Positions 3,493 to 49,624 of a stretch of DNA of 52,199 bases are shown piece by piece. How positions within the stretch are numbered: position 1 is the stretch's first letter; the number at the start of each line of letters is the position of its first letter. Under the pieces are notes generated by a model. That model was given only the letters and a program-made list of their open reading frames with translations. It did no database searches and had not been told where the DNA came from. Position numbers and translations under genes: made by a program. This DNA is from Treponema sp. GTDB lineage: Bacteria; Spirochaetota; Spirochaetia; Treponematales; Breznakiellaceae. The DNA lies in assembly GCA_009788065.1 (NCBI GenBank), contig WQSF01000007.1, positions 7,950 through 60,148 on the forward strand, in the 5' to 3' direction.

Positions 3493-5037
3493 CTATTTTA
3501 CCTTTCCGTAATATGTTGTAATAGACATCGGAGCGAGTTTAACTGTAGTTGAGTTCCCCGAAACTCTCTGCCTTCCGGCAGATTTAAGTTTTTCATTCTC
3601 AGATGTTCTCCATATTTCAAGCTGGGAGAATTCCGAGCCGTTAAGATCAAGATTGATTGAAGCTGGTGTAATAGTTTCGTTAATTATAACGATTGCGATT
3701 TCTTTTGAATCCGCGCTTCTATACGCGCTTAAATACATACCGGCAAGCGGAGTAAATTCGCAGTTGATCCTGCTCCAGCCGGGACGGATAAAACGCGAAT
3801 ATTGCCCCATCGCGTAAAGCCTTAGAGCCGGTTTTATTTCATCGTCTTCGACTAATATTAAAGCGCCGGGATATTCGGGCGATATTGTGTTTGTCCAGAG
3901 CCACCAGTAAAGGAACGCGTTTGTCTGCGTAAGCGTCAAATCCCAGTGGATCATTCTTGCGTATAGAAGCGCGTTCGCTATACCGACGCCCTTTGGTATG
4001 CCGCTTCCCGATCCTGAAACTTCTGTCTGCCAGAAACGTTTACCTGTCGCGATAATTTCCGGAAATTCTCTCGCGCCGGCTCTTGATGAATTATCGTTTT
4101 GCGCGTTGTACTGATGAAGGGCGATATGCGTGATTAATTTTTCCGATTCAGGATCATCGATCGAAGGTTTTATCATCTCGTTAAAATTGATGTTGAAATT
4201 TTCAAATTCGGGCATCATTATGCTGATACCGCCTTCGCCGAATTTAACGCCTTTCATCAGGAATCTTTGTCCTAATGTTTTTATAAAATCCCGAAGATCC
4301 GTTCCGTTCCAGTAACAGCATTCCCAGTCCGCTTTCCAGTTAGGTTCATTTTGAACGGAGAGGATCGATAAAGGAGCGCCCATATTTTTTTCAAAACCCG
4401 ACACATAATCCGCAAGAAGATCGGCGTAATCATTGTAGTGCGCTCTTTTTAATCTTCCCCACAATTCAGGGCGCGACCAATTCATTGAATAATTAATCCG
4501 GCTGCTGACACCTGTTATGTCTTCTTTCCATTGCGTTACGCGGTTATTAGGCGGCGACCATGGCGCGCTCATTATGACAAGCTTCTCGGGGCCGTCATCG
4601 CCTAATTCTTTTATTCGGCTGATAAGTTTTCTTGTGCTGTCCAAATCCCATGAATTCCAGTCGAGATTATAGGTTTTTGTTCCGTTCGCATTAGCAGTGT
4701 ACGAATATGTATAATCGGCGTTTCTTGTTAAAAATCCGTCAAAGTGGTTATGCGCGTCGCCGGGAACGCTCTCGCGGAACGGTACGCGGTTTCGCAAGAC
4801 AGAAAATCCCATTCCTTCAGTTCTTGAATAAAGCAGCTTAACAAGGTCAGACGCGGTTTCGGGATGCGAAGGAAGCCTTGTCCACGCGTTAGATCCGCCG
4901 AACCCGTCTATCTCCTGTCTTAAATCGTTATATAAGATTTTTATAACTCTGTCCACTGAACCGCCTGACGGACTTGAACCGCATGAAATAAATAATAATA
5001 GTAAAACAGCTAAAAATGTAAAGTATTTTATTCTCAT
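3493..5037 (-). CDS. GH30-family glycoside hydrolase (probable xylanase/glucuronoxylanase), lipoprotein
   Basis: The protein has 514 residues, with a lipoprotein signal ending LLLFISC (C19) and then a Ser/Gly-rich spacer. GH30 motifs are clear: DGFGGSNAW near 44-52, MSAPWSPP near 156-163, acid/base E231 in SVQNEPNW and nucleophile E339 in FWQTEVSGSG. The last 80 or so residues form the beta-sandwich side domain usual in this family. GH30 enzymes near GH10 genes often cut glucuronoxylan, and the uxuA gene downstream supports a uronate-bearing substrate, but the residues that define subfamily 8 were not resolved by eye. Its ATG overlaps the stop of the upstream GH10 gene by four bases (ATGA), so the two are co-transcribed and probably translationally coupled. 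Confidence 0.92.
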   Translation of the reverse strand: MRIKYFTFLAVLLLLFISCGSSPSGGSVDRVIKILYNDLRQEIDGFGGSNAWTRLPSHPETASDLVKLLYSRTEGMGFSVLRNRVPFRESVPGDAHNHFDGFLTRNADYTYSYTANANGTKTYNLDWNSWDLDSTRKLISRIKELGDDGPEKLVIMSAPWSPPNNRVTQWKEDITGVSSRINYSMNWSRPELWGRLKRAHYNDYADLLADYVSGFEKNMGAPLSILSVQNEPNWKADWECCYWNGTDLRDFIKTLGQRFLMKGVKFGEGGISIMMPEFENFNINFNEMIKPSIDDPESEKLITHIALHQYNAQNDNSSRAGAREFPEIIATGKRFWQTEVSGSGSGIPKGVGIANALLYARMIHWDLTLTQTNAFLYWWLWTNTISPEYPGALILVEDDEIKPALRLYAMGQYSRFIRPGWSRINCEFTPLAGMYLSAYRSADSKEIAIVIINETITPASINLDLNGSEFSQLEIWRTSENEKLKSAGRQRVSGNSTTVKLAPMSITTYYGKVK

Positions 5038-6167
5038 TTTATACCTAATGTTTTATCGGGGTCTGCAACAGCCCAAAATGCCTGTTTCGGATTTAAGAAA
5101 CCGTCCCAAAGGCACGGATTTCCAAGTGATTTCCAACTGAGTTCGTCGTCCATGCCCCACATGGATACGCGGGTTATGTGTTCGCCGTATTCTTTAAAGA
5201 CTTTAAAAAGTTCCGCGTATTTAATCGCCTGTGTTCTTTGATCTACGTCCAGAACCTGAGAATCTCTTCCGGTTCCGAAATTGCCGCTTCCCACGCTTCT
5301 GATTGTAACGTCAAGTTCGCTGATATCAATTCTTATGCCTATCGCTATAAATTTTTCTATGGAAGCGCGTACATTAGGAGCGCTTGTATTTGATCCGTAA
5401 TGCGCCTGCATTCCGACTCCGTCTATTAAATTGCGCGTATTTCCTTCGGCTTTATATCTGTCATTGATGTCCTTTATCATATTTGCCGTAATTGTCGCTT
5501 TTCTTGAGCTGTCAAGATTATAGTCATTGTAATAAAGAAAAATATCGGGGTCAGCCGCGCGGGCTGTTCTGAACGCAAATTCAACATAGCTCATATCGTT
5601 TGTATTCGCTCTGTTCCAGCCGCTCTCGGGGCGCAGATAGGCTCTCCAGTCCTGGGATTGTTCGCCAGGGTTAACGCGCTCTACAATCGCTTCGTTGACA
5701 ACATCCCATGCGTAAACCCTTCCTTTGAAATGATTAAGAACAGTGTTGATATGATTAGCCATATTGTTTCTGATTTCCTGAGGAGTTCCTTCAGTCATCC
5801 ATTTGTGGGTTTGATTATGCCAGACAAGGGTATGTCCGAAAACTTTTATATTATGAGCAAGTATTTCATCTACAAGCTCGTCCGCCGGTCCGAAATTGTA
5901 CTGTCCGCCTTTTTCTCTGGGAGCAAGATGATCAGGTTTCATCTGGTTTTCCGCGGTTACAACATTGAAGTGTGTTTTAAGAAGACCGAAATAATGGTTA
6001 TCCAAATATCTGCGGGTTATAATGTTTCCGATAAGGAAATAATTTTCGTAAACGGTTTTTAAAGCCGGTAATTTATTCTGCGTTTTTCCAGCGCCTGTCG
6101 AAGCGCAGTTCGAGAAATTGATTGAAAACAGTATGAAAAATAAAATTGATATTGCTTTTAACTTCAT
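5034..6167 (-). CDS. GH10 endo-1,4-beta-xylanase, lipoprotein (second copy)
   Basis: The protein has 377 residues with a lipoprotein signal ending INFSNC (C21). GH10 motifs are present in order: TAENQMKPD at 71-79, HTLVWHNQ at 112-119, acid/base E159 in WDVVNEA and nucleophile E284 in IDISELDV. It resembles the GH10 at 2404-3492 in length, lipobox and the FLIGNI segment after the signal, but differs in loops, including a longer insert after the acid/base strand. It is the first gene of a two-gene operon with GH30 and has an AGAGG ribosome binding site. The promoter on this strand reads TTGATT, 17 bases, TATCAT at 6225-6197. Confidence 0.95.
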   Translation of the reverse strand: MKLKAISILFFILFSINFSNCASTGAGKTQNKLPALKTVYENYFLIGNIITRRYLDNHYFGLLKTHFNVVTAENQMKPDHLAPREKGGQYNFGPADELVDEILAHNIKVFGHTLVWHNQTHKWMTEGTPQEIRNNMANHINTVLNHFKGRVYAWDVVNEAIVERVNPGEQSQDWRAYLRPESGWNRANTNDMSYVEFAFRTARAADPDIFLYYNDYNLDSSRKATITANMIKDINDRYKAEGNTRNLIDGVGMQAHYGSNTSAPNVRASIEKFIAIGIRIDISELDVTIRSVGSGNFGTGRDSQVLDVDQRTQAIKYAELFKVFKEYGEHITRVSMWGMDDELSWKSLGNPCLWDGFLNPKQAFWAVADPDKTLGIK

Positions 6168-6196
6168 TACGGTACCTCTTAATTAATTGATTAATC

Positions 6197-6225
6197 ATGA
6201 TACAATGAAATCGTTTATAAATCAA
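6197..6225 (-). promoter_or_regulatory. Sigma70-type promoter of the GH10-GH30 operon
   Basis: On the minus strand TTGATT (6225-6220) and TATCAT (6202-6197) are separated by exactly 17 bases and lie about 30 bases before the ATG of the GH10 gene, which leaves room for its AGAGG ribosome binding site. Confidence 0.55.
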
Positions 6226-6289
6226 TATTGACAGTATTTTATCTGTACAATGAATATATCAGGCTATCTGTAGAATAAATTAAAATTTA

Positions 6290-6298
6290 TGATATAAT
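6290..6298 (+). promoter_or_regulatory. Extended -10 promoter of the GH2-uxuA unit
   Basis: TGATATAAT is a perfect extended -10 element. It ends six bases before the GH2 ATG, so transcription should start at or next to the start codon. No Shine-Dalgarno sequence is present, and the -35 match is poor, as is common with extended -10 promoters. Confidence 0.6.
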
Positions 6299-6304
6299 AA
6301 TTAA

Positions 6305-8641
6305 ATGACGCTTCTAAATAAAGGCTGGAAATTCTGTTCTGGTAAAATTAAAAATGCTCAAAACGCCGATTTTGACGACAGTGCGTGGAAAAACATAGAT
6401 CTACCGCATGACTGGGTAATTTCTCAGCCGTTTGACAGAGGAAAACCGGAAGGCTGGACGCATCAGAATATGCAGGGTTTTTTTTCATGGGAAGGTGTTT
6501 GCTGGTATCGTAAGGTTTTTACGCTTTCAAAGATCGAAGCGAAAGAAATTTATATTTATTTCGCAGGCGCGTACCGCAACAGTGTTGTTTATATAAACGG
6601 CAGGGAAGCGGGAGGGCGCGCGAACGGTTATTCCAGCTTCGAAATCGACATAACCGAATTTGCGCAGGAAGGAAATAATGTTATCGCCGTTTACCTTGAT
6701 AACGGCTGCGAGCCTCCCGACCGCTGGTATTCGGGAAGCGGCATTTACCGCGACGTATGGCTAAAGATTCTTCCCTCAACGCACATAAAAACATGGGGCG
6801 TGCAGATAAAAACAGAATTGTCAAAAAATAATAAACAGGCGGATATCAGCGTATTAACAACAATCGTAAATAAAAAACAAAAAACCGAAAAAAACGATCA
6901 CAAAGTAAAAGGTATTGTATGGGTAAAACTGCTAGGACCTAACGGAAAATATGTAGCCGAAATTACAGGTCCATTTGAATGTCCGGGAGGAGAAGAGACA
7001 GTCGCGCGCCTGCAGGCTAAAATTTTAAATCCGGTCTTATGGTCTGCGGAAAATCCTTCCCTTTACCGGGCTTTTATCAACCTGGAAATAAACGGAAAGA
7101 CGGACGAGCCTTTGGAGTTTAACATAGGAATTCGCTCGATAGAGATTGAATATAAAAAAGGAATGAAAGTTAACGGAGAAAAGGTAAAATTAAAAGGCGT
7201 TTGCCTTCACCATGACGCCGGGATTACAGGCAGCGCGTATTATGAATCTGTATGGCGGCGCAGATTAAATATTTTAAAATCTATAGGATGTAACGCGATA
7301 AGAACAAGCCACAATCCGCCTGCTGAAGAATTTTTAAATCTTTGCGATGAAACGGGGTTCTATGTAATTGACGAATGTTTTGACAAATGGGTAAGCGGAT
7401 ATTATTCATCACATTACGAAAAAGATTCAAAGCGCGACCTTACCGATTTTATATTACGCGACAGAAATCACCCGTCTGTTTTTATGTGGAGTATCGGAAA
7501 CGAAGTTGAAAATCAAGGGACTGACGGCATGATCGCAATTCAGAAAAGACTTGTCGATATTGTAAAAGAACTTGATTCCCGTCCTGTAACGTGCGCTCTT
7601 GCGCCTCACGCGAATCCAAGAACCCTTGTCGGATCTCCGCCCGAAGAACTTGTAAAACTTACAAAAAAACTTGCAAAGGACGTTGACGTATTGGGACTTA
7701 ATTACCACGAGCCTCTTTATCAGCATTATACTAAAGGAATTGACAAGCCGATTATCGGAACCGAATGTTATGAATATTATTCAAGCGTCGGAACAAATTT
7801 TGAAGATGTGTGCGATAAAAATCCGTGGCAGTTTGTACTTGAAAACGACAATGTAATAGGGCAGTTTATCTGGGCAGGAATAGATTACCTTGGCGAAGCT
7901 CCGTGGCCTTGCAAGGGCTGGACAGGCTCTATTCTGGATATATGCGGTTTTATGAAACCTAACGCGTATTTTAGAAAAAGTATTTGGTCGAATGAACCGT
8001 TTGTATACCTGGCTTTTTATGATCAGTACATGAAAAGAGATTACGCGCGCGGACGCTGGTCTTTTCCGCAGATGTCATCAAACCTTAACCAGGAATATTT
8101 TGAGCGAAGAACGGTTACAGCATGCGTATTTACAAATTGCGAGGAAGCTGAACTGTGGATAAACGGGAAAAAGAGGGGGTTAAGGAGAAGAGAAGATTTT
8201 AAAAACGGAATAATTGAATGGACAATTGAATATACGACAGATGACATCGAAGTAAAAGGAATTACAGATGGCAGGCAAGAGTGCTCATATGCGCTGAAGA
8301 AAGCCGGCGAATCAAAAAAAATTAAATTGATTGCCGATAAATCCGAAATTGACGCGGGAGACATCGCTCATATTGAGGTTAATATTACGGACAAGAACGG
8401 AATTTTATGCGCTTATAATAATGAATCGCTTGTAGAATTTTCATTAACGGGAGACGCAGTGTTTTTGGGAGCCTGTTCAGGAGATTTAACCCAGAACATG
8501 GGATTTACCCTGCCAAAGGCAGTTATATCAGGCGGAAAGGCGCTTGCAATGATTAGGATAGGCGATACTCCAGGAATTGTTGAATTATGCGCAATTTCAG
8601 AAAGACTTGATAAAGCTCAAATTAAATTTAAGGTTAAATAA
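6305..8641 (+). CDS. Glycoside hydrolase family 2 (beta-galactosidase/beta-glucuronidase-like), cytoplasmic
   Basis: The protein has 778 residues and no signal peptide, so it should act in the cytoplasm on imported oligosaccharides. The order is an N-terminal sugar-binding sandwich (LPHDWV near 31), an immunoglobulin-like domain, a TIM barrel and a C-terminal beta domain. In the barrel, SHNPP and the acid/base E400 in WSIGNEVE are followed by the nucleophile E487 in IIGTECYE. The barrel ends in the WAGIDYLGEAPWP segment seen in LacZ-like GH2 enzymes. The exact sugar removed cannot be told: galactoside, glucuronide and xyloside are all possible. uxuA starts five bases after its stop, which favours a uronate-related role. 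The start follows an extended -10 by six bases. Confidence 0.9.
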   Translation: MTLLNKGWKFCSGKIKNAQNADFDDSAWKNIDLPHDWVISQPFDRGKPEGWTHQNMQGFFSWEGVCWYRKVFTLSKIEAKEIYIYFAGAYRNSVVYINGREAGGRANGYSSFEIDITEFAQEGNNVIAVYLDNGCEPPDRWYSGSGIYRDVWLKILPSTHIKTWGVQIKTELSKNNKQADISVLTTIVNKKQKTEKNDHKVKGIVWVKLLGPNGKYVAEITGPFECPGGEETVARLQAKILNPVLWSAENPSLYRAFINLEINGKTDEPLEFNIGIRSIEIEYKKGMKVNGEKVKLKGVCLHHDAGITGSAYYESVWRRRLNILKSIGCNAIRTSHNPPAEEFLNLCDETGFYVIDECFDKWVSGYYSSHYEKDSKRDLTDFILRDRNHPSVFMWSIGNEVENQGTDGMIAIQKRLVDIVKELDSRPVTCALAPHANPRTLVGSPPEELVKLTKKLAKDVDVLGLNYHEPLYQHYTKGIDKPIIGTECYEYYSSVGTNFEDVCDKNPWQFVLENDNVIGQFIWAGIDYLGEAPWPCKGWTGSILDICGFMKPNAYFRKSIWSNEPFVYLAFYDQYMKRDYARGRWSFPQMSSNLNQEYFERRTVTACVFTNCEEAELWINGKKRGLRRREDFKNGIIEWTIEYTTDDIEVKGITDGRQECSYALKKAGESKKIKLIADKSEIDAGDIAHIEVNITDKNGILCAYNNESLVEFSLTGDAVFLGACSGDLTQNMGFTLPKAVISGGKALAMIRIGDTPGIVELCAISERLDKAQIKFKVK

Positions 8642-44867: not shown

Positions 44868-46487
44868 TTACTTTTTATTCTTGCGTATCGCTTCCAGACA
44901 TTCACGTTTAAAGACAACAACAGAAAGTCCTTTGTGTTCAATCTCGATTTTAAGTTTAGCCGCGTTATCTTCTACCAGATTGGGTCTGGCTTCAAGTTCA
45001 AGCAGACGCTCAGGTTTTACTCCGCAGCCGAGGATTAAACTTTTAAGTTTGTCAGAAGGTACAATCGTGGGCTGACAGCCTGTCATCGCGACGCTTGAGT
45101 TATCCAAAATGATAAGAGTCATCGGAACATCGGCTTCTACAGCGTCGATTAAAGGAGTGATACCGGAATGAATAAATGTCGAATCGCCGATAACGGCAAG
45201 CGAATATTTAAGACCAGCGTCAGACGCGCCTTTTGCCATACCGACACACGCGCCCATGCAGATAATAGTTTCGATTGCGGATAGAGGCGGCGTAGCGCCG
45301 AGAGAATAGCATCCTATATCAGAATTGATGCCGACATCGGGGTGTCCCGGTCTTGAGTCAAGAAAGGCGACCGCTTTATTAATTGTGTTGTAGCTGTCGG
45401 TGTGAGGGCATCCCTGACAGAGAACAGGGGGTCTAGGCGGCAATCTGTCTGCGTCTATTTTTGATTTAATTGTTTTTCTCGACGGAAGACCTAGAATTTT
45501 TCTTACGTTGTCAGGATCGAGTTCTCCAGCCCGGATAACAGGTTTTAATTCTGCGCCTGTAAGACCGAAAATTTTCTTTGCAATGAAGGGCTGTCCTTCT
45601 TCGATAATGATTATTTCTTCGGCTTCATCGCAGAGTTTGCGTATCTTTTTTTCAGGAAGCGGATAGGCTCCGATATGCAGATGCGAAGGGATACTCTTGC
45701 CCTGTTTCTTGCGTAATTCTATAAAATCATTCAGGTTTTCTTCATAGTAGTTGCCGCCCAAGCCGGATGTGATAATCGCAAGATCGCTTTTTGCGCTGTT
45801 CATTTTATTCGCCGGATGCTGATATGACCATTCAGCAAGAACGTTTTGCTTGTCTAAAAGCGCGTTGTAATTTTTTCTGGCGAAAGCCGGAAGAAGCATC
45901 CATGAATTTTTCTCCTGTGTTTTGGAGAGTTTGTTTTGGTTTTTTCCCTGCTTTGGAACTACCGCGGCTCTTGCGTGCGCGAGGCGCGTTACAAGCCGAA
46001 GAACTACAGGTACGTTGAAACGTTCGGAAACTTCAAACGCTTCGCGCGCCATGTCGTAAGCTTCCTGCTGGCTGCGCGGTTCAAGACACGGAACAAGCGC
46101 AAAGTCCGCGTAAAAACGTGAATCCTGCTCGTTCTGGGAGCTGTGCATACCGGGATCATCGGCTACTGCGATGACAAGACCGCCTTTAATTTTTAATAAA
46201 GCCGAATTAATAAATGGGTCTGCGGCGACGTTTAAGCCGACATGCTTCATCGTAACGATTGCGCGCCTTCCCGCGAAGGACACTCCCATAGCGGCTTCCA
46301 TCGCGGTTTTTTCGTTTGAACACCAGCGCGCGACAGGCGCTCCGTCAGTCTTTTTAAAATTATTAATCAGATACTGCAGAATTTCTGTGGACGGTGTCCC
46401 CGGATATCCGTAAGCGGCGCTTATTCCTCCGTGGAGCGCTCCGAGCGCGACAGCTTCATCTCCCAATAACGCAAGTCTTTCGCTCAT
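44868..46487 (-). CDS. iorA: Indolepyruvate ferredoxin oxidoreductase alpha subunit (IorA), lacking the ferredoxin domain
   Basis: The protein has 539 residues. The pyruvate-binding domain begins GYPGTPSTEI near 29-38, and the TPP-binding half has CQGCPHTDSYN near 355 and GDSTFIHSG...NSSVAMTG near 430-460. IorA converts aryl pyruvates from aromatic amino acids to aryl-acetyl-CoA with reduced ferredoxin. Normal IorA is about 600-650 residues, with a C-terminal segment holding eight Cys for two [4Fe-4S] clusters; here the sequence ends at RECLEAIRKNKK with no such Cys cluster. No iorB is beside it. It overlaps the efp stop by four bases (ATGA), so the two are co-transcribed. Confidence 0.9.
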   Translation of the reverse strand: MSERLALLGDEAVALGALHGGISAAYGYPGTPSTEILQYLINNFKKTDGAPVARWCSNEKTAMEAAMGVSFAGRRAIVTMKHVGLNVAADPFINSALLKIKGGLVIAVADDPGMHSSQNEQDSRFYADFALVPCLEPRSQQEAYDMAREAFEVSERFNVPVVLRLVTRLAHARAAVVPKQGKNQNKLSKTQEKNSWMLLPAFARKNYNALLDKQNVLAEWSYQHPANKMNSAKSDLAIITSGLGGNYYEENLNDFIELRKKQGKSIPSHLHIGAYPLPEKKIRKLCDEAEEIIIIEEGQPFIAKKIFGLTGAELKPVIRAGELDPDNVRKILGLPSRKTIKSKIDADRLPPRPPVLCQGCPHTDSYNTINKAVAFLDSRPGHPDVGINSDIGCYSLGATPPLSAIETIICMGACVGMAKGASDAGLKYSLAVIGDSTFIHSGITPLIDAVEADVPMTLIILDNSSVAMTGCQPTIVPSDKLKSLILGCGVKPERLLELEARPNLVEDNAAKLKIEIEHKGLSVVVFKRECLEAIRKNKK

Positions 46488-47047
46488 GAATTAACCCGCT
46501 CAAGATATTCGTTTGTTTCTGTATTAACAAGAATTCTTTCATCCTGTTTAATAAAAAGAGGCACTCGTACCGTTAAACCTGTTTCGGTTTTTATCGGTTT
46601 TGTCGCGCCTGTAGCGGTATCGCCTTTTATATAATTTTCGCTTTCGGCAACCGTAAAAACAACCTTGTAAGGAATTTGAATATCGATAACCTTTCCGTCG
46701 AAAATTGTAATCTGATAAGAGTTTCCTTCCTGGAGATACAGTTTTTTATCGGGATTTTCGTTTATACCAACTTCGTATTGATCAAAAGATTCGTTGTCCA
46801 TGAAGTGATAATTGTCTTGATCGCTGTATTGATACTGGCAGGCGCGAATATCGACCTGCGCGTCTTCAACTTCCTGCTGAGTGGGAATTGTAAGGCTTAA
46901 AACAGAGCCGTCTTTAATGCTCTTCATTTTTATGCGCGCGATAGCTGTCCCTTTGCCCGGAGTGTGAAATTCCCTTTCAACAACCAAATACGGCTGTCCC
47001 TTCTGTAATAAACAAGTTCCTTTTGTTATATCTCCGCATCGAATCAT
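46484..47047 (-). CDS. efp: Elongation factor P
   Basis: The protein has 187 residues, as usual, in three OB-type domains. The loop that reaches the peptidyl-transferase centre reads FHTPGKGTA, with K32 at the position modified by beta-lysyl or 5-aminopentanol groups in other bacteria. It helps ribosomes through polyproline stretches. The start has an AGAGGAATAAT leader, and its stop overlaps iorA. Why efp should be joined to iorA is not obvious; it may be only positional. Confidence 0.95.
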   Translation of the reverse strand: MIRCGDITKGTCLLQKGQPYLVVEREFHTPGKGTAIARIKMKSIKDGSVLSLTIPTQQEVEDAQVDIRACQYQYSDQDNYHFMDNESFDQYEVGINENPDKKLYLQEGNSYQITIFDGKVIDIQIPYKVVFTVAESENYIKGDTATGATKPIKTETGLTVRVPLFIKQDERILVNTETNEYLERVNS

Positions 47048-47137
47048 ATTATTCCTCTTAACTTCTTATTGATGATAAAATTGTACTAAAAATAGATGTT
47101 TTTGGGAAGGGGGAGCGGATAACGGTAAATTTTACTA

Positions 47138-47166
47138 TTGATCTATAGGTACAATGACCGCATAAT
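47138..47166 (+). promoter_or_regulatory. Promoter of first hemerythrin gene
   Basis: TTGATC (47138-47143), 17 bases and CATAAT (47161-47166), followed by a 30-base leader with a GAGGAGCG ribosome binding site at 47187-47194. Confidence 0.5.
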
Positions 47167-47196
47167 TAGACAATGAAATAAAAAAGAGGAGCGTTT

Positions 47197-47598
47197 ATGG
47201 CTTACTTATGGAATAAAACCCTTGAAACAGGCTACGATGAGATAGACGAACAGCACAAACAGTTATTTATCACATTGAACGATTTTATAGACGCATGCCG
47301 GCATAATCAGGGAGCGGAAAATACATTAAAGACAATCGAATTTCTGACAAAATATACGATTATGCATTTTACTACAGAAGAAGTGCTTATGAAAAACTGC
47401 AATTATCCTGAATATATTTATCACAAGCAGTGTCATGATACATTCAAAGAAACAGTAGGCGATTTTACAAAGCGCTTGGAAAGCGAAGGCCCGAACGAGG
47501 ACCTTATTGTTGCAATTACAACGACAATCGGCGAATGGCTGATAACCCATATAAGAGTTGACGATACAAAAATGGCTAAATTTGTTAAAAACAACTAA
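47197..47598 (+). CDS. Bacteriohemerythrin 1
   Basis: The protein has 133 residues, a four-helix hemerythrin. All seven di-iron ligands are in place: H20, H57, E61, H76, H80, H118 and D123. It should bind oxygen reversibly and act as a carrier, sensor or scavenger in an anaerobe. A GAGGAG ribosome binding site is well placed before the ATG. It is the first gene of a four-gene same-strand cassette with two zinc-ribbon lipoproteins and a second hemerythrin. Confidence 0.95.
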   Translation: MAYLWNKTLETGYDEIDEQHKQLFITLNDFIDACRHNQGAENTLKTIEFLTKYTIMHFTTEEVLMKNCNYPEYIYHKQCHDTFKETVGDFTKRLESEGPNEDLIVAITTTIGEWLITHIRVDDTKMAKFVKNN

Positions 47599-47630
47599 GT
47601 TTTGCAAGCGGCACATTGAAAATATAAAAA

Positions 47631-47659
47631 TTGTTTTTTCATCGGACAGGGTATATAAT
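47631..47659 (+). promoter_or_regulatory. Promoter of the zinc-ribbon lipoprotein pair
   Basis: TTGTTT (47631-47636), 17 bases and TATAAT (47654-47659). AGGAGG then lies before the ATG at 47678. It means the lipoprotein pair can be made independently of the first hemerythrin. Confidence 0.65.
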
Positions 47660-47677
47660 GTTATTTAGGAGGATATT

Positions 47678-47917
47678 ATGAATAATAAAAAAATTGCCGT
47701 TGCCATGAAAGCGGGTCTTGCTCTGTTTGTTATACTTGCAGGATTAATCATTTTCTCCTGCGCGAGAGAATCTGTAACCTACTGCCCGTTCTGCAGATCA
47801 ATGGGCGTAAAGGAGATTTCCGTATATAACACGACCACCGGTATAACGGAAATTCATTATGAATGTACAAATACCGATTGCGGTAAAACGTTCGGCGCGG
47901 GTAAAATTAATATATAA
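47678..47917 (+). CDS. Small zinc-ribbon lipoprotein 1
   Basis: The protein has only 79 residues. A hydrophobic signal (11-27) ends in IIFSC, so C28 should be lipidated. After it come C36-x2-C39 (YCPFC) and C63-x4-C68 (ECTNTDC), a four-Cys zinc-ribbon-like layout, and the ending GKTFGAGKINI. So nearly all of the mature protein is a metal or redox site tethered to a membrane. Twelve bases separate it from its paralogue. It has its own promoter and AGGAGG ribosome binding site. No family was recognised. Confidence 0.85.
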   Translation: MNNKKIAVAMKAGLALFVILAGLIIFSCARESVTYCPFCRSMGVKEISVYNTTTGITEIHYECTNTDCGKTFGAGKINI

Positions 47918-47929
47918 AGGAGTGGCAGA

Positions 47930-48124
47930 ATGAAAAAATTATTAATTATTTTATTAATTGCGGTTATCGTCTTTACTGTCGCAAGCTGTGAATGGGATTC
48001 CATTCATTATTGCCCATATTGTTCTTCCAGTAATATTACGCAAAATGACGACGGCACTTATAAATGCAACAGAGACAGTTGCGGCGTTACATTCGGCGCT
48101 AAACAACTGCCAAGCGCGAAGTAA
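47930..48124 (+). CDS. Small zinc-ribbon lipoprotein 2 (paralogue)
   Basis: The protein has only 64 residues. A signal ending TVASC gives C20 as lipidated residue; then C28-x2-C31 (YCPYC) and C46-x4-C51 (KCNRDSC). The order C-P-aromatic-C, a Cys pair about 15 residues later with the spacing x4, and the GVTFGAK ending match its neighbour, so the two arose by duplication. An AAAGGAG ribosome binding site precedes the ATG. A hemerythrin gene follows 65 bases later with its own promoter. Function unknown; metal or redox sensing in the periplasm is a guess. Confidence 0.85.
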   Translation: MKKLLIILLIAVIVFTVASCEWDSIHYCPYCSSSNITQNDDGTYKCNRDSCGVTFGAKQLPSAK

Positions 48125-48154
48125 AACAGGACTGTCCGTAATACATTAAATCAT

Positions 48155-48183
48155 TTGCAATATTTTAAGATTCATGGTACAAT
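48155..48183 (+). promoter_or_regulatory. Promoter of second hemerythrin gene, leaderless
   Basis: TTGCAA (48155-48160), 17 bases and TACAAT (48178-48183), with an extended TG. The -10 ends six bases before the ATG, so translation must begin without a leader. In contrast the first hemerythrin has a normal leader and ribosome binding site. Confidence 0.75.
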
Positions 48184-48189
48184 GGTCTC

Positions 48190-48657
48190 ATGAGTAATGA
48201 AATAATCAAGTGGGATAAAAAATATGCGACAGGTATAGATCTCATAGATGAGCAGCACAAGGAACTTATCGTTCTTACAAATAAACTTTACGCCGCCTGT
48301 TTTACCGCTGACGGCGAGCTGGAAACCAAGTTTAAAGACGCTATGAGTAAAATGGTCAAATATGTCCAATACCACTTTGACGCTGAATTAAAACTCCTTG
48401 CTGCTATTGATTATCCAAAATACGAAGAACATAAAAGGATGCATGTCTCGCTAATAAAAAAAATTCTGGATTCCGCAAAGAGCCACGACGAAGGCAAAAA
48501 GTTTGTCCCGAACAATTTTGTCCGCACTCTTGTAGATTGGGTTTTCGGACATATCGCTGTTTACGACAAACAATACAGCGCGTTTGCCGAAGGGCAGTTA
48601 AAGAACGGTAAATTGTCGATGGAAAAGTTAAAACAAATAGAAAAAGCTTCCGCTTAA
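48190..48657 (+). CDS. Bacteriohemerythrin 2
   Basis: The protein has 155 residues. All seven ligands of the di-iron site are present: H23, H62, E66, H81, H85, H121 and D126. It is longer than the first copy through an insert between helices three and four and an extra 20-residue tail. The two differ enough in sequence to be old duplicates or separate acquisitions. The extended -10 lies six bases before the ATG, so the mRNA is predicted to be leaderless. Confidence 0.95.
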   Translation: MSNEIIKWDKKYATGIDLIDEQHKELIVLTNKLYAACFTADGELETKFKDAMSKMVKYVQYHFDAELKLLAAIDYPKYEEHKRMHVSLIKKILDSAKSHDEGKKFVPNNFVRTLVDWVFGHIAVYDKQYSAFAEGQLKNGKLSMEKLKQIEKASA

Positions 48658-48675
48658 CGCGCGGCTTTAATGATC

Positions 48676-48704
48676 AAGACAAAAATACTGTATTTTGATA
48701 CATT
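48676..48704 (+). promoter_or_regulatory. Candidate leaderless promoter of the PAP2-like gene
   Basis: AAGACA (48676-48681), 17 bases and an extended -10 TGATACATT whose hexamer covers 48699-48704, ending five bases before the ATG at 48710. The -35 matches four of six bases. Confidence 0.45.
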
Positions 48705-48709
48705 GAATC

Positions 48710-49624
48710 ATGAATAAAAGTGACAGCGTTTACACCCAAAACTGGCTTTATGCGCTTTTTAATTCGATTCTTTTTCCCGCTCTGCGCCCGGCTTTTTTAA
48801 AAACAGTTCCAAGGATTATTTATAATTTCTTTCTTAGGCAGTATCATGCCGCTTTTTTTTCAGGCAGGATTCCTGTAACAAGCGTAGATCATAAGCTCGA
48901 TGAAAAAGTGCCGTTTGCGCCTGCATGGGTTACTATATACCTTGATTTTGTTCACTTCTGGATTCGTTTAATTACTTTCTTTCTTAAAAGATATAAAAGA
49001 AAAGCGCATATTCCTGTAAGAGATTTTATTTATTCGATGGGTGATTTATACGTTTTCGCGGCGGAAATATACAAGCGCAATATGTCCACAACAAAGAGGC
49101 CGTTCTACATCGCGCGTCCAAGGTTTTTTGTAATACATTTACTTGACCCGCATCTTATGTGCATTCCAAGCCTTCATGTTATGGTAGTTGTTCATACATA
49201 TCTGCAATTTTCAGAAATTGCAAAGAAAATAGGTGAATCGGATAAATTAAAAGATCAGGCGCTTGAATTAAAGCAGGGCGCTTTGGCGATATGTCAGGCG
49301 ATTCTGTTTGTAAAGCAGCACAGCGTAAACTGTATACCCGCGGCGCTTTACGCAATGACATGCTTTTGCTCTGAACTTTTTCCCTGCGAAGAGGCGGAAA
49401 AATTCACCAGTCTGCTTTTTTCTCCGGCACCGTGCGCGGTTAATGAAGAAATTAAAAAAATTAAAGTCCACCCTGCGGCAGCGCCCAGGACAAATATTAA
49501 CGCCGAAGATCAAGCGCGAATAAAGGATCATATACTGTCGCTTTATTACCGTTTTCTTGAAGAAAAAAAGACATCCCAAAACTGGTATGATCCGCTTATC
49601 AATTTTCTTAAAACATATTCATGA
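48710..49624 (+). CDS. PAP2-like membrane protein with degenerate third motif
   Basis: The protein has 304 residues and a few moderately hydrophobic helices. It has the PAP2 phosphatase motif C1 as K129-x6-R136-P137, and C2 as CIPSLH at 151-156, which resembles the PSLH form of inositol-phosphotransferase-type PAP2 proteins. The third motif should be SR-x5-H-x3-D; here H204 of KQHSVNC is present but the SR pair and the Asp (C208) are not. So the fold is likely and phosphatase activity is uncertain. It may act on lipid phosphates or head groups. The C-terminal 75 residues are soluble. The next gene overlaps by four bases (ATGA). Confidence 0.6.
   Translation: MNKSDSVYTQNWLYALFNSILFPALRPAFLKTVPRIIYNFFLRQYHAAFFSGRIPVTSVDHKLDEKVPFAPAWVTIYLDFVHFWIRLITFFLKRYKRKAHIPVRDFIYSMGDLYVFAAEIYKRNMSTTKRPFYIARPRFFVIHLLDPHLMCIPSLHVMVVVHTYLQFSEIAKKIGESDKLKDQALELKQGALAICQAILFVKQHSVNCIPAALYAMTCFCSELFPCEEAEKFTSLLFSPAPCAVNEEIKKIKVHPAAAPRTNINAEDQARIKDHILSLYYRFLEEKKTSQNWYDPLINFLKTYS

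Follow-up and report, generated by a model that had tools for sequence, protein, structure and literature searches.

A cassette of four genes, in the order hemerythrin, ribbon, ribbon, hemerythrin, lies in a 52,199-nt stretch of Treponema sp. DNA (the whole of the stretch analysed, hereafter the window), and it raises the question of whether oxygen-binding proteins and small cysteine-rich lipoproteins form a system here or have merely come to lie side by side. The features discussed below are as follows.

46484..47047, - strand: elongation factor P (EFP), left flank, also in relatives without the cassette
47112..48690, no strand: insertion relative to the empty site, approximate extent, ends by eye
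47138..47166, + strand: candidate Hr1 promoter, consensus match only
47197..47598, + strand: Hr1, single-domain bacteriohemerythrin, 133 aa, all seven diiron ligands
47631..47659, + strand: candidate Rib1-Rib2 promoter, TTGTTT-17-TATAAT, by eye, absent from the scan list
47678..47917, + strand: Rib1, predicted lipoprotein, 79 aa, lipobox IFSC with Cys28, Ogr/Delta-type C-x2-C / C-x4-C ribbon
47930..48124, + strand: Rib2, Rib1 paralogue, 64 aa, lipobox VASC with Cys20
48154..48183, + strand: candidate Hr2 promoter, -10 box ending 6 nt before the ATG
48190..48657, + strand: Hr2, single-domain bacteriohemerythrin, 155 aa, all seven diiron ligands, hemerythrin lineage other than that of Hr1
48710..49624, + strand: 304-aa protein, right flank, directly opposite EFP in 7 other loci

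The four cassette genes are intact frames on the same strand in the ORF list, separated by 79, 12 and 65 nt, so that the gene order and coordinates in the sequence-only reading of this DNA are confirmed. The 304-aa protein matched neither Pfam nor NCBIfam families at E≤1.

Hr1 and Hr2 matched the Pfam Hemerythrin family (E-values 2e-12 and 1.7e-10) and scored 112.3 and 110.5 bits, respectively, with the NCBIfam model bact_hemeryth (NF033749), both above its cut-off of 84. Alignment with the hemerythrin domain of DcrH (2avk) showed the diiron site to be complete in each, with five His, one Glu and one Asp; the accessible part of PMC9388753 gives the ligand motif as H-HxxxE-HxxxH-HxxxxD. Since the family match is accompanied by retention of all seven ligands, both proteins are likely to bind O2, and their earlier description as two complete hemerythrins stands. 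Several Treponema species have 2–3 single-domain O2-binding hemerythrins each, according to the accessible part of PMC4919030, and multiple copies are accordingly normal; we found hemerythrin matches in all 39 same-genus genomes, with 1 to 9 per genome. Hemerythrin domains were also seen within open frames of 556–1475 aa in G027, G022, G028, G024 and G029, perhaps representing sensor fusions. In G022, G028 and G027, two such domains lie about 2 kb apart, and since the frames are equal in length, both domains probably belong to one protein. In a tree of 47 rows, Hr1 and Hr2 fell into separate starred clades, the members of each sitting apart in other genomes. These separate clades rule out a tandem duplication and indicate that the cassette was built from two hemerythrin lineages plus a ribbon pair, not duplicated in place.

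The site of the cassette was examined through EFP, for which 31 matches were found in 29 of the 39 genus genomes and 30 loci were read. Two are filled (the window and contig C94 of G021), seven are empty, with EFP directly opposite the 304-aa gene (L078, L081, L082, L084, L085, L094 and L105), and the remaining 21 lie next to other genes or at contig ends. The empty sites indicate that the cassette was inserted locally, as about 1.6 kb of DNA, where EFP and the 304-aa gene adjoin in these relatives. Repeats around the cassette look like chance and no integrase was recognised on reading the window's ORF list, so mobile-element ends were discarded as an explanation. The four-gene order was thus found on the window's contig and on the small contig G021:C94, in both opposite EFP, i.e. 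two cases of one site. Since G021 holds both states of the site, filled on C94 (L046, EFP 96% identical to that of the window) and empty on C9 (L105, EFP 85%), the 3.8-kb contig C94 probably belongs to a species sister to the window's and was misbinned into G021. G008 likewise has two EFP matches. At the end of C94, the Hr2 segment (L046 3582–3821 against window 48190–48429) gave a pS of 0.23, compared with 0.53–0.72 for five neighbouring genes, with 49, 54, 58 and 57 of 60 nt identical; this high similarity suggests either that recombination took place or that the assembly broke where sequence is shared.

Relatives of the two hemerythrins are mostly found elsewhere. Among 30 Hr2 homolog loci, cassette partners were present only at the window's own, and among 30 loci from the Hr1 search only at the window's own and G021:C94. 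Ribbon neighbours were absent from 57 of these 60 loci (flanks of about 1.5 kb; a few loci overlap), the other three being G021:C94 and the window's locus, which counts in both sets. The neighbourhood check proposed in the sequence-only reading, in which conserved linkage with hemerythrin was to support a system, therefore gives no support to a conserved hemerythrin-ribbon system, the full order having been seen at one site.

A consensus scan of 2.6 kb returned 13 promoter-like sites, compared with 9.0 (sd 3.2) in shuffled sequences. Of the three cassette promoters proposed earlier, those before Hr1 and Hr2 were in the scan list and that of Rib1, recognised by eye, has a similar counterpart in G021; all three are retained as candidates, but are weak in view of the shuffled counts. 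Rib1 and Rib2 are probably one operon, with a 12-nt gap and its own ribosome site. The -10 box of Hr2 ends 6 nt 5' of the ATG and there is no Shine-Dalgarno sequence, and from the position of the box the mRNA is predicted to be probably leaderless. A -10 box 5–8 nt before the start was found in 17 of 29 Hr2 homologs (L011–L039) and in 15 of the 16 best-scoring ones, as against 1 of 14 Hr1, 0 of 29 EFP and 1 of 7 304-aa homologs, with several candidate starts allowed per gene in all sets alike. Translation in the Hr2 lineage thus seems to start from leaderless mRNA, and Hr2 would have kept its own promoter layout, which favours three transcription units; the cassette looks like three such units. 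Four more window genes (starts at 6305, 9799, 13020 and 29508) have a -10-like box 5–8 nt upstream and no Shine-Dalgarno sequence. With Hr2, this makes 5 of 45 window genes, compared with 43 of 1490 for any ATG (counted without the Shine-Dalgarno condition), so that leaderless genes may be common in the window's genome.

These observations bear on the most likely of the alternatives, that the intergenic space between EFP and the 304-aa gene is permissive and collected unrelated genes, their neighbourhood having no functional meaning. The empty site in seven loci, the presence of Hr1 and Hr2 relatives at other, unlinked places and the separate leaderless layout of Hr2 all fit this explanation, whereas the arrival of two hemerythrins of separate lineages at one site, and the recurrence of a hemerythrin near the ribbon pair in G031 (see below), do not. 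We regard it as a real possibility, though short of probable.

Rib1 and Rib2 have a common plan, namely a basic N-terminus, a hydrophobic stretch and a Cys after Ser/Gly, followed by YCPxC ... C-x4-C-G-x2-F-G-A (C36-x2-C39 ... C63-x4-C68 in Rib1 numbering, with a GKTFGA or GVTFGA stretch near the C-terminal end). The six ribbon sequences come from three genomes and agree without exception in the four Cys of the ribbon, the Cys of the lipobox and the residues Y, P, G, F, G and A; the residue before the lipobox Cys is S or G in all six. The lipoprotein features were judged by sequence alone, without a signal-peptide program, and the Rib1 lipobox has F at -2, which is atypical. With a lipobox and the C-x2-C / C-x4-C pattern in both, the earlier view of them as paralogous four-Cys mini-lipoproteins of 79 and 64 residues is kept as a prediction. 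The Rib1-Rib2 order and open frames are preserved in all three genomes with the pair, and whole-gene dN/dS (NG86) was 0.17–0.34 in five of six comparisons, the sixth being saturated and synonymous sites being near saturation; these data indicate that Rib1 and Rib2 are real genes.

Rib1 of the window shares 54% identity with Rib1 of G021:C94 and about 49–52% with that of G031, but 32, 34 and 43% with the three Rib2 proteins; Rib2 shares 52% between the window and G021:C94. Since Rib1 is nearer to other Rib1 proteins than to Rib2, the duplication appears to predate the separation of the three genomes, with both copies retained. Between the window and G021:C94, EFP is 96% and IorA 87% identical, so the ribbon genes are constrained yet evolve far faster than EFP or IorA. 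That Rib1 is about equally distant from G021:C94 and G031, although EFP of the window shares only 84% identity with that of G031, would reflect either this fast evolution or separate acquisition. The two AlphaFold ribbon models had mean pLDDT values of 62.9 and 59.7, their sole feature being a hairpin between the Cys pairs at moderate confidence. Foldseek with the low-confidence ribbon model gave no match at E≤0.001, and a profile search of solved structures gave only weak ribosomal zinc-ribbon matches (best E 0.032).

The ribbon pair is rare. A Rib1 protein search found it in 3 of 98 genomes, the window's own included, and a six-row ribbon profile in 3 of the 39 genus genomes. Profile searches were extended to overlapping sets of 195 genomes of the family, 390 of the order and 392 of the phylum (G021 and G031 not being listed in the last), in which at most 30, 17 and 15 candidates per genome, respectively, were scored, so that distant ribbons may be missed. 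Strong matches in the genus, family, order and phylum searches were confined to G000, G021 and G031, and these searches lend no support to conservation of the cassette across spirochetes. Additional matches, in 22 genomes of the family, 16 of the order and 4 of the phylum, were weak. The reading of weak matches covers those with an assigned locus: none of the 28 loci from the family and phylum searches (L048–L075) showed a lipoprotein ribbon at the match. Most resembled IS1-type transposase fingers; among the remainder were a frame like Nudix (L063), one like topoisomerase (L074) and some that lacked the Cys pattern. The frames with CPFCGS-like fingers resemble the N-terminal zinc finger of IS1-type transposases. 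Cys-motif frames of the same kinds were obtained from 10 of the 15 order-search loci (L153–L167); of the other five, L156, L160, L161 and L166 are the places read as L053, L058, L059 and L065, and L163 (G662) was left out. A scan of 84,980 species genomes with one peptide pattern yielded two relatives, both on contigs of 'Treponema sp.' MAGs: WQSW01000094.1, the content of which matches G021:C94, and JAIRUQ010000076.1, which matches G031:C60. The MAGs carrying ribbon relatives presumably come from termite guts. Many of the sampled genomes are incomplete MAGs, and the window's own is 70% complete.

The family affinities of the ribbons lead to a second alternative, that the pair is a domesticated phage (Ogr/Delta) or IS1-type transposase finger set behind a lipoprotein leader, and that its role has nothing to do with oxygen. 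The best family matches are Ogr_Delta (Pfam:PF04606), found for five of the six ribbon members at E≤0.1 (lowest 1.4e-6), and phrog_603, a phage regulator, found for three of six (lowest 3.2e-4), and the weak family-search matches were mostly IS1-transposase-like fingers. Rib1 reached 24.1 bits with PF04606, under the curated gathering cut-off of 26.3, PF04606 was not among the Pfam matches of Rib2 at E≤1, and NCBIfam IS1_IS1595_Zn matched Rib2 below its cut-off (E 0.027). Against domestication, short zinc ribbons converge easily, the similarity spans only about 38 residues, and no phage or transposon gene was recognised adjoining the cassette. In phage sequences, tblastn of Rib1 reached, at E 0.2, just two ogr/Delta proteins of Acidovorax phages; with zero matches in plasmids and no confirmed relative in an IMG/VR scan, a phage or plasmid origin was rejected. 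Ogr/Delta proteins are phage late-transcription activators, and the lipobox, invariant in all six members, would argue against a cytoplasmic role of this kind for the ribbons. We consider the domestication somewhat doubtful; the best reading is that the pair belongs to a rare, fast-evolving family of predicted lipoproteins with an Ogr/Delta-type finger.

In G031, the ribbon pair (L047 7995–8412) has no adjacent hemerythrin. Divergent from it are a chemotaxis receptor (5408–7603) and then a hemerythrin (4852–5313), 2.7 kb from the pair on the opposite strand and with seven ligands by eye. This hemerythrin is divergent in sequence and sits on a long branch, its place in the tree being unsure. 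G031 has 6 hemerythrin matches in 3.1 Mb (this hemerythrin may or may not be among the six), and by rough, after-the-fact arithmetic the chance of a hemerythrin so near the pair is about 1%. The proximity mildly favours a real ribbon-hemerythrin link and is the only independent hint of one. The four closest genus relatives of the G031 hemerythrin (53–62% identity) lie elsewhere, with neither receptor nor ribbons in their 1.5-kb flanks, and it had no match at E≤1e-15 in G000 or G021. The sequence-only reading held that ribbon genes scattered without hemerythrin in relatives would tell against a system; this is half the case, in one of three genomes, and there the nearest hemerythrin is 2.7 kb off. 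Linkage thus amounts to two contigs at one site plus one genome loosely linked. Upstream of the G031 pair, a perfect palindrome around GAACATTTGTTC (L047 7952–7963) resembles a repressor site; 18 of 200 shuffles contained at least one palindrome, and as the pattern is absent from the window it was discarded as a shared operator.

A third alternative, a dedicated oxygen or oxidative-stress module, would have the ribbons act together with the hemerythrins, as a metal or redox site in the envelope, in electron supply, iron handling or sensing. It draws on the four-gene order being kept in the window and G021:C94 despite the low identity of Rib1 and Rib2, and on the G031 hemerythrin behind the chemotaxis receptor. 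However, the full order is known from one genomic site, 36 of the 39 genus genomes have hemerythrins with no ribbon found, the hemerythrins lack an export signal whereas the ribbons are predicted to be outside, and the G031 hemerythrin is divergent and of unsure place. The oxygen-response system proposed earlier thus keeps its functional-looking hemerythrins and lipobox-bearing ribbons, but its status as a system is possible yet unproven; a functional link between ribbons and hemerythrins seems to us rather unlikely, and the dedicated module unlikely. In the literature searched, of which full texts were partly covered, a linkage of hemerythrin with ribbon lipoproteins is undescribed, in agreement with the earlier remark that no described system was recognised. 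We consider it improbable that an Ogr/Delta-type finger was moved outside the cell as a lipid-anchored pair which, by sensing or handling metal or redox state, cooperates with cytosolic hemerythrins in the oxygen adaptation of gut spirochetes.

The reading that we favour, as the fairly probable one, is a cluster put together at this site and made up of three transcription units, in which ordinary hemerythrins stand beside a co-transcribed pair of ribbon lipoproteins that would hold metal at the membrane. Hr1 and Hr2 would be ordinary cytosolic bacteriohemerythrins carrying O2 at the diiron site and, by analogy with HerA of Campylobacter jejuni, would most likely buffer O2 around oxygen-labile enzymes. 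Rib1 and Rib2 would leave the cytoplasm, receive a lipid on the conserved Cys and stay anchored at the membrane, where the four ribbon Cys of each would coordinate a single metal ion, zinc in a structural role being the likeliest; the paralogues probably function jointly. Should the ribbons share the hemerythrin response, hemerythrin would have a partner in the envelope that has not been described. Should they be unrelated to it, they would still represent a rare family of minimal zinc ribbons that are probably exported, with the Hr2 lineage still a candidate for conserved leaderless translation.

Compared with known systems, i) the ribbons share with the Ogr/Delta zinc finger (PF04606) the C-x2-C ... 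C-x4-C pattern, invariant in all six members, but follow a lipoprotein signal, are predicted to lie outside the cytoplasm and have no phage context, ii) they share the CPFCGS ... C-x4/5-C stretch with IS1-type transposase fingers, the frames of which, unlike Rib1 and Rib2, have no lipobox, and iii) they resemble rubredoxin in having four Cys with one CPxC half. The second half of rubredoxin has C-x2-C spacing, whereas that of the ribbons is C-x4-C, and rubredoxin was absent among the Pfam matches of Rib1 and Rib2 at E≤1. Hr1 and Hr2 are like HerA and HerB of C. jejuni and the hemerythrin domain of DcrH in family, size and all seven ligands; HerA shields Por and Oor from oxygen, according to the accessible part of PMC4257069. 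They differ from these proteins in that they adjoin ribbon lipoproteins and that Hr2 is probably leaderless.
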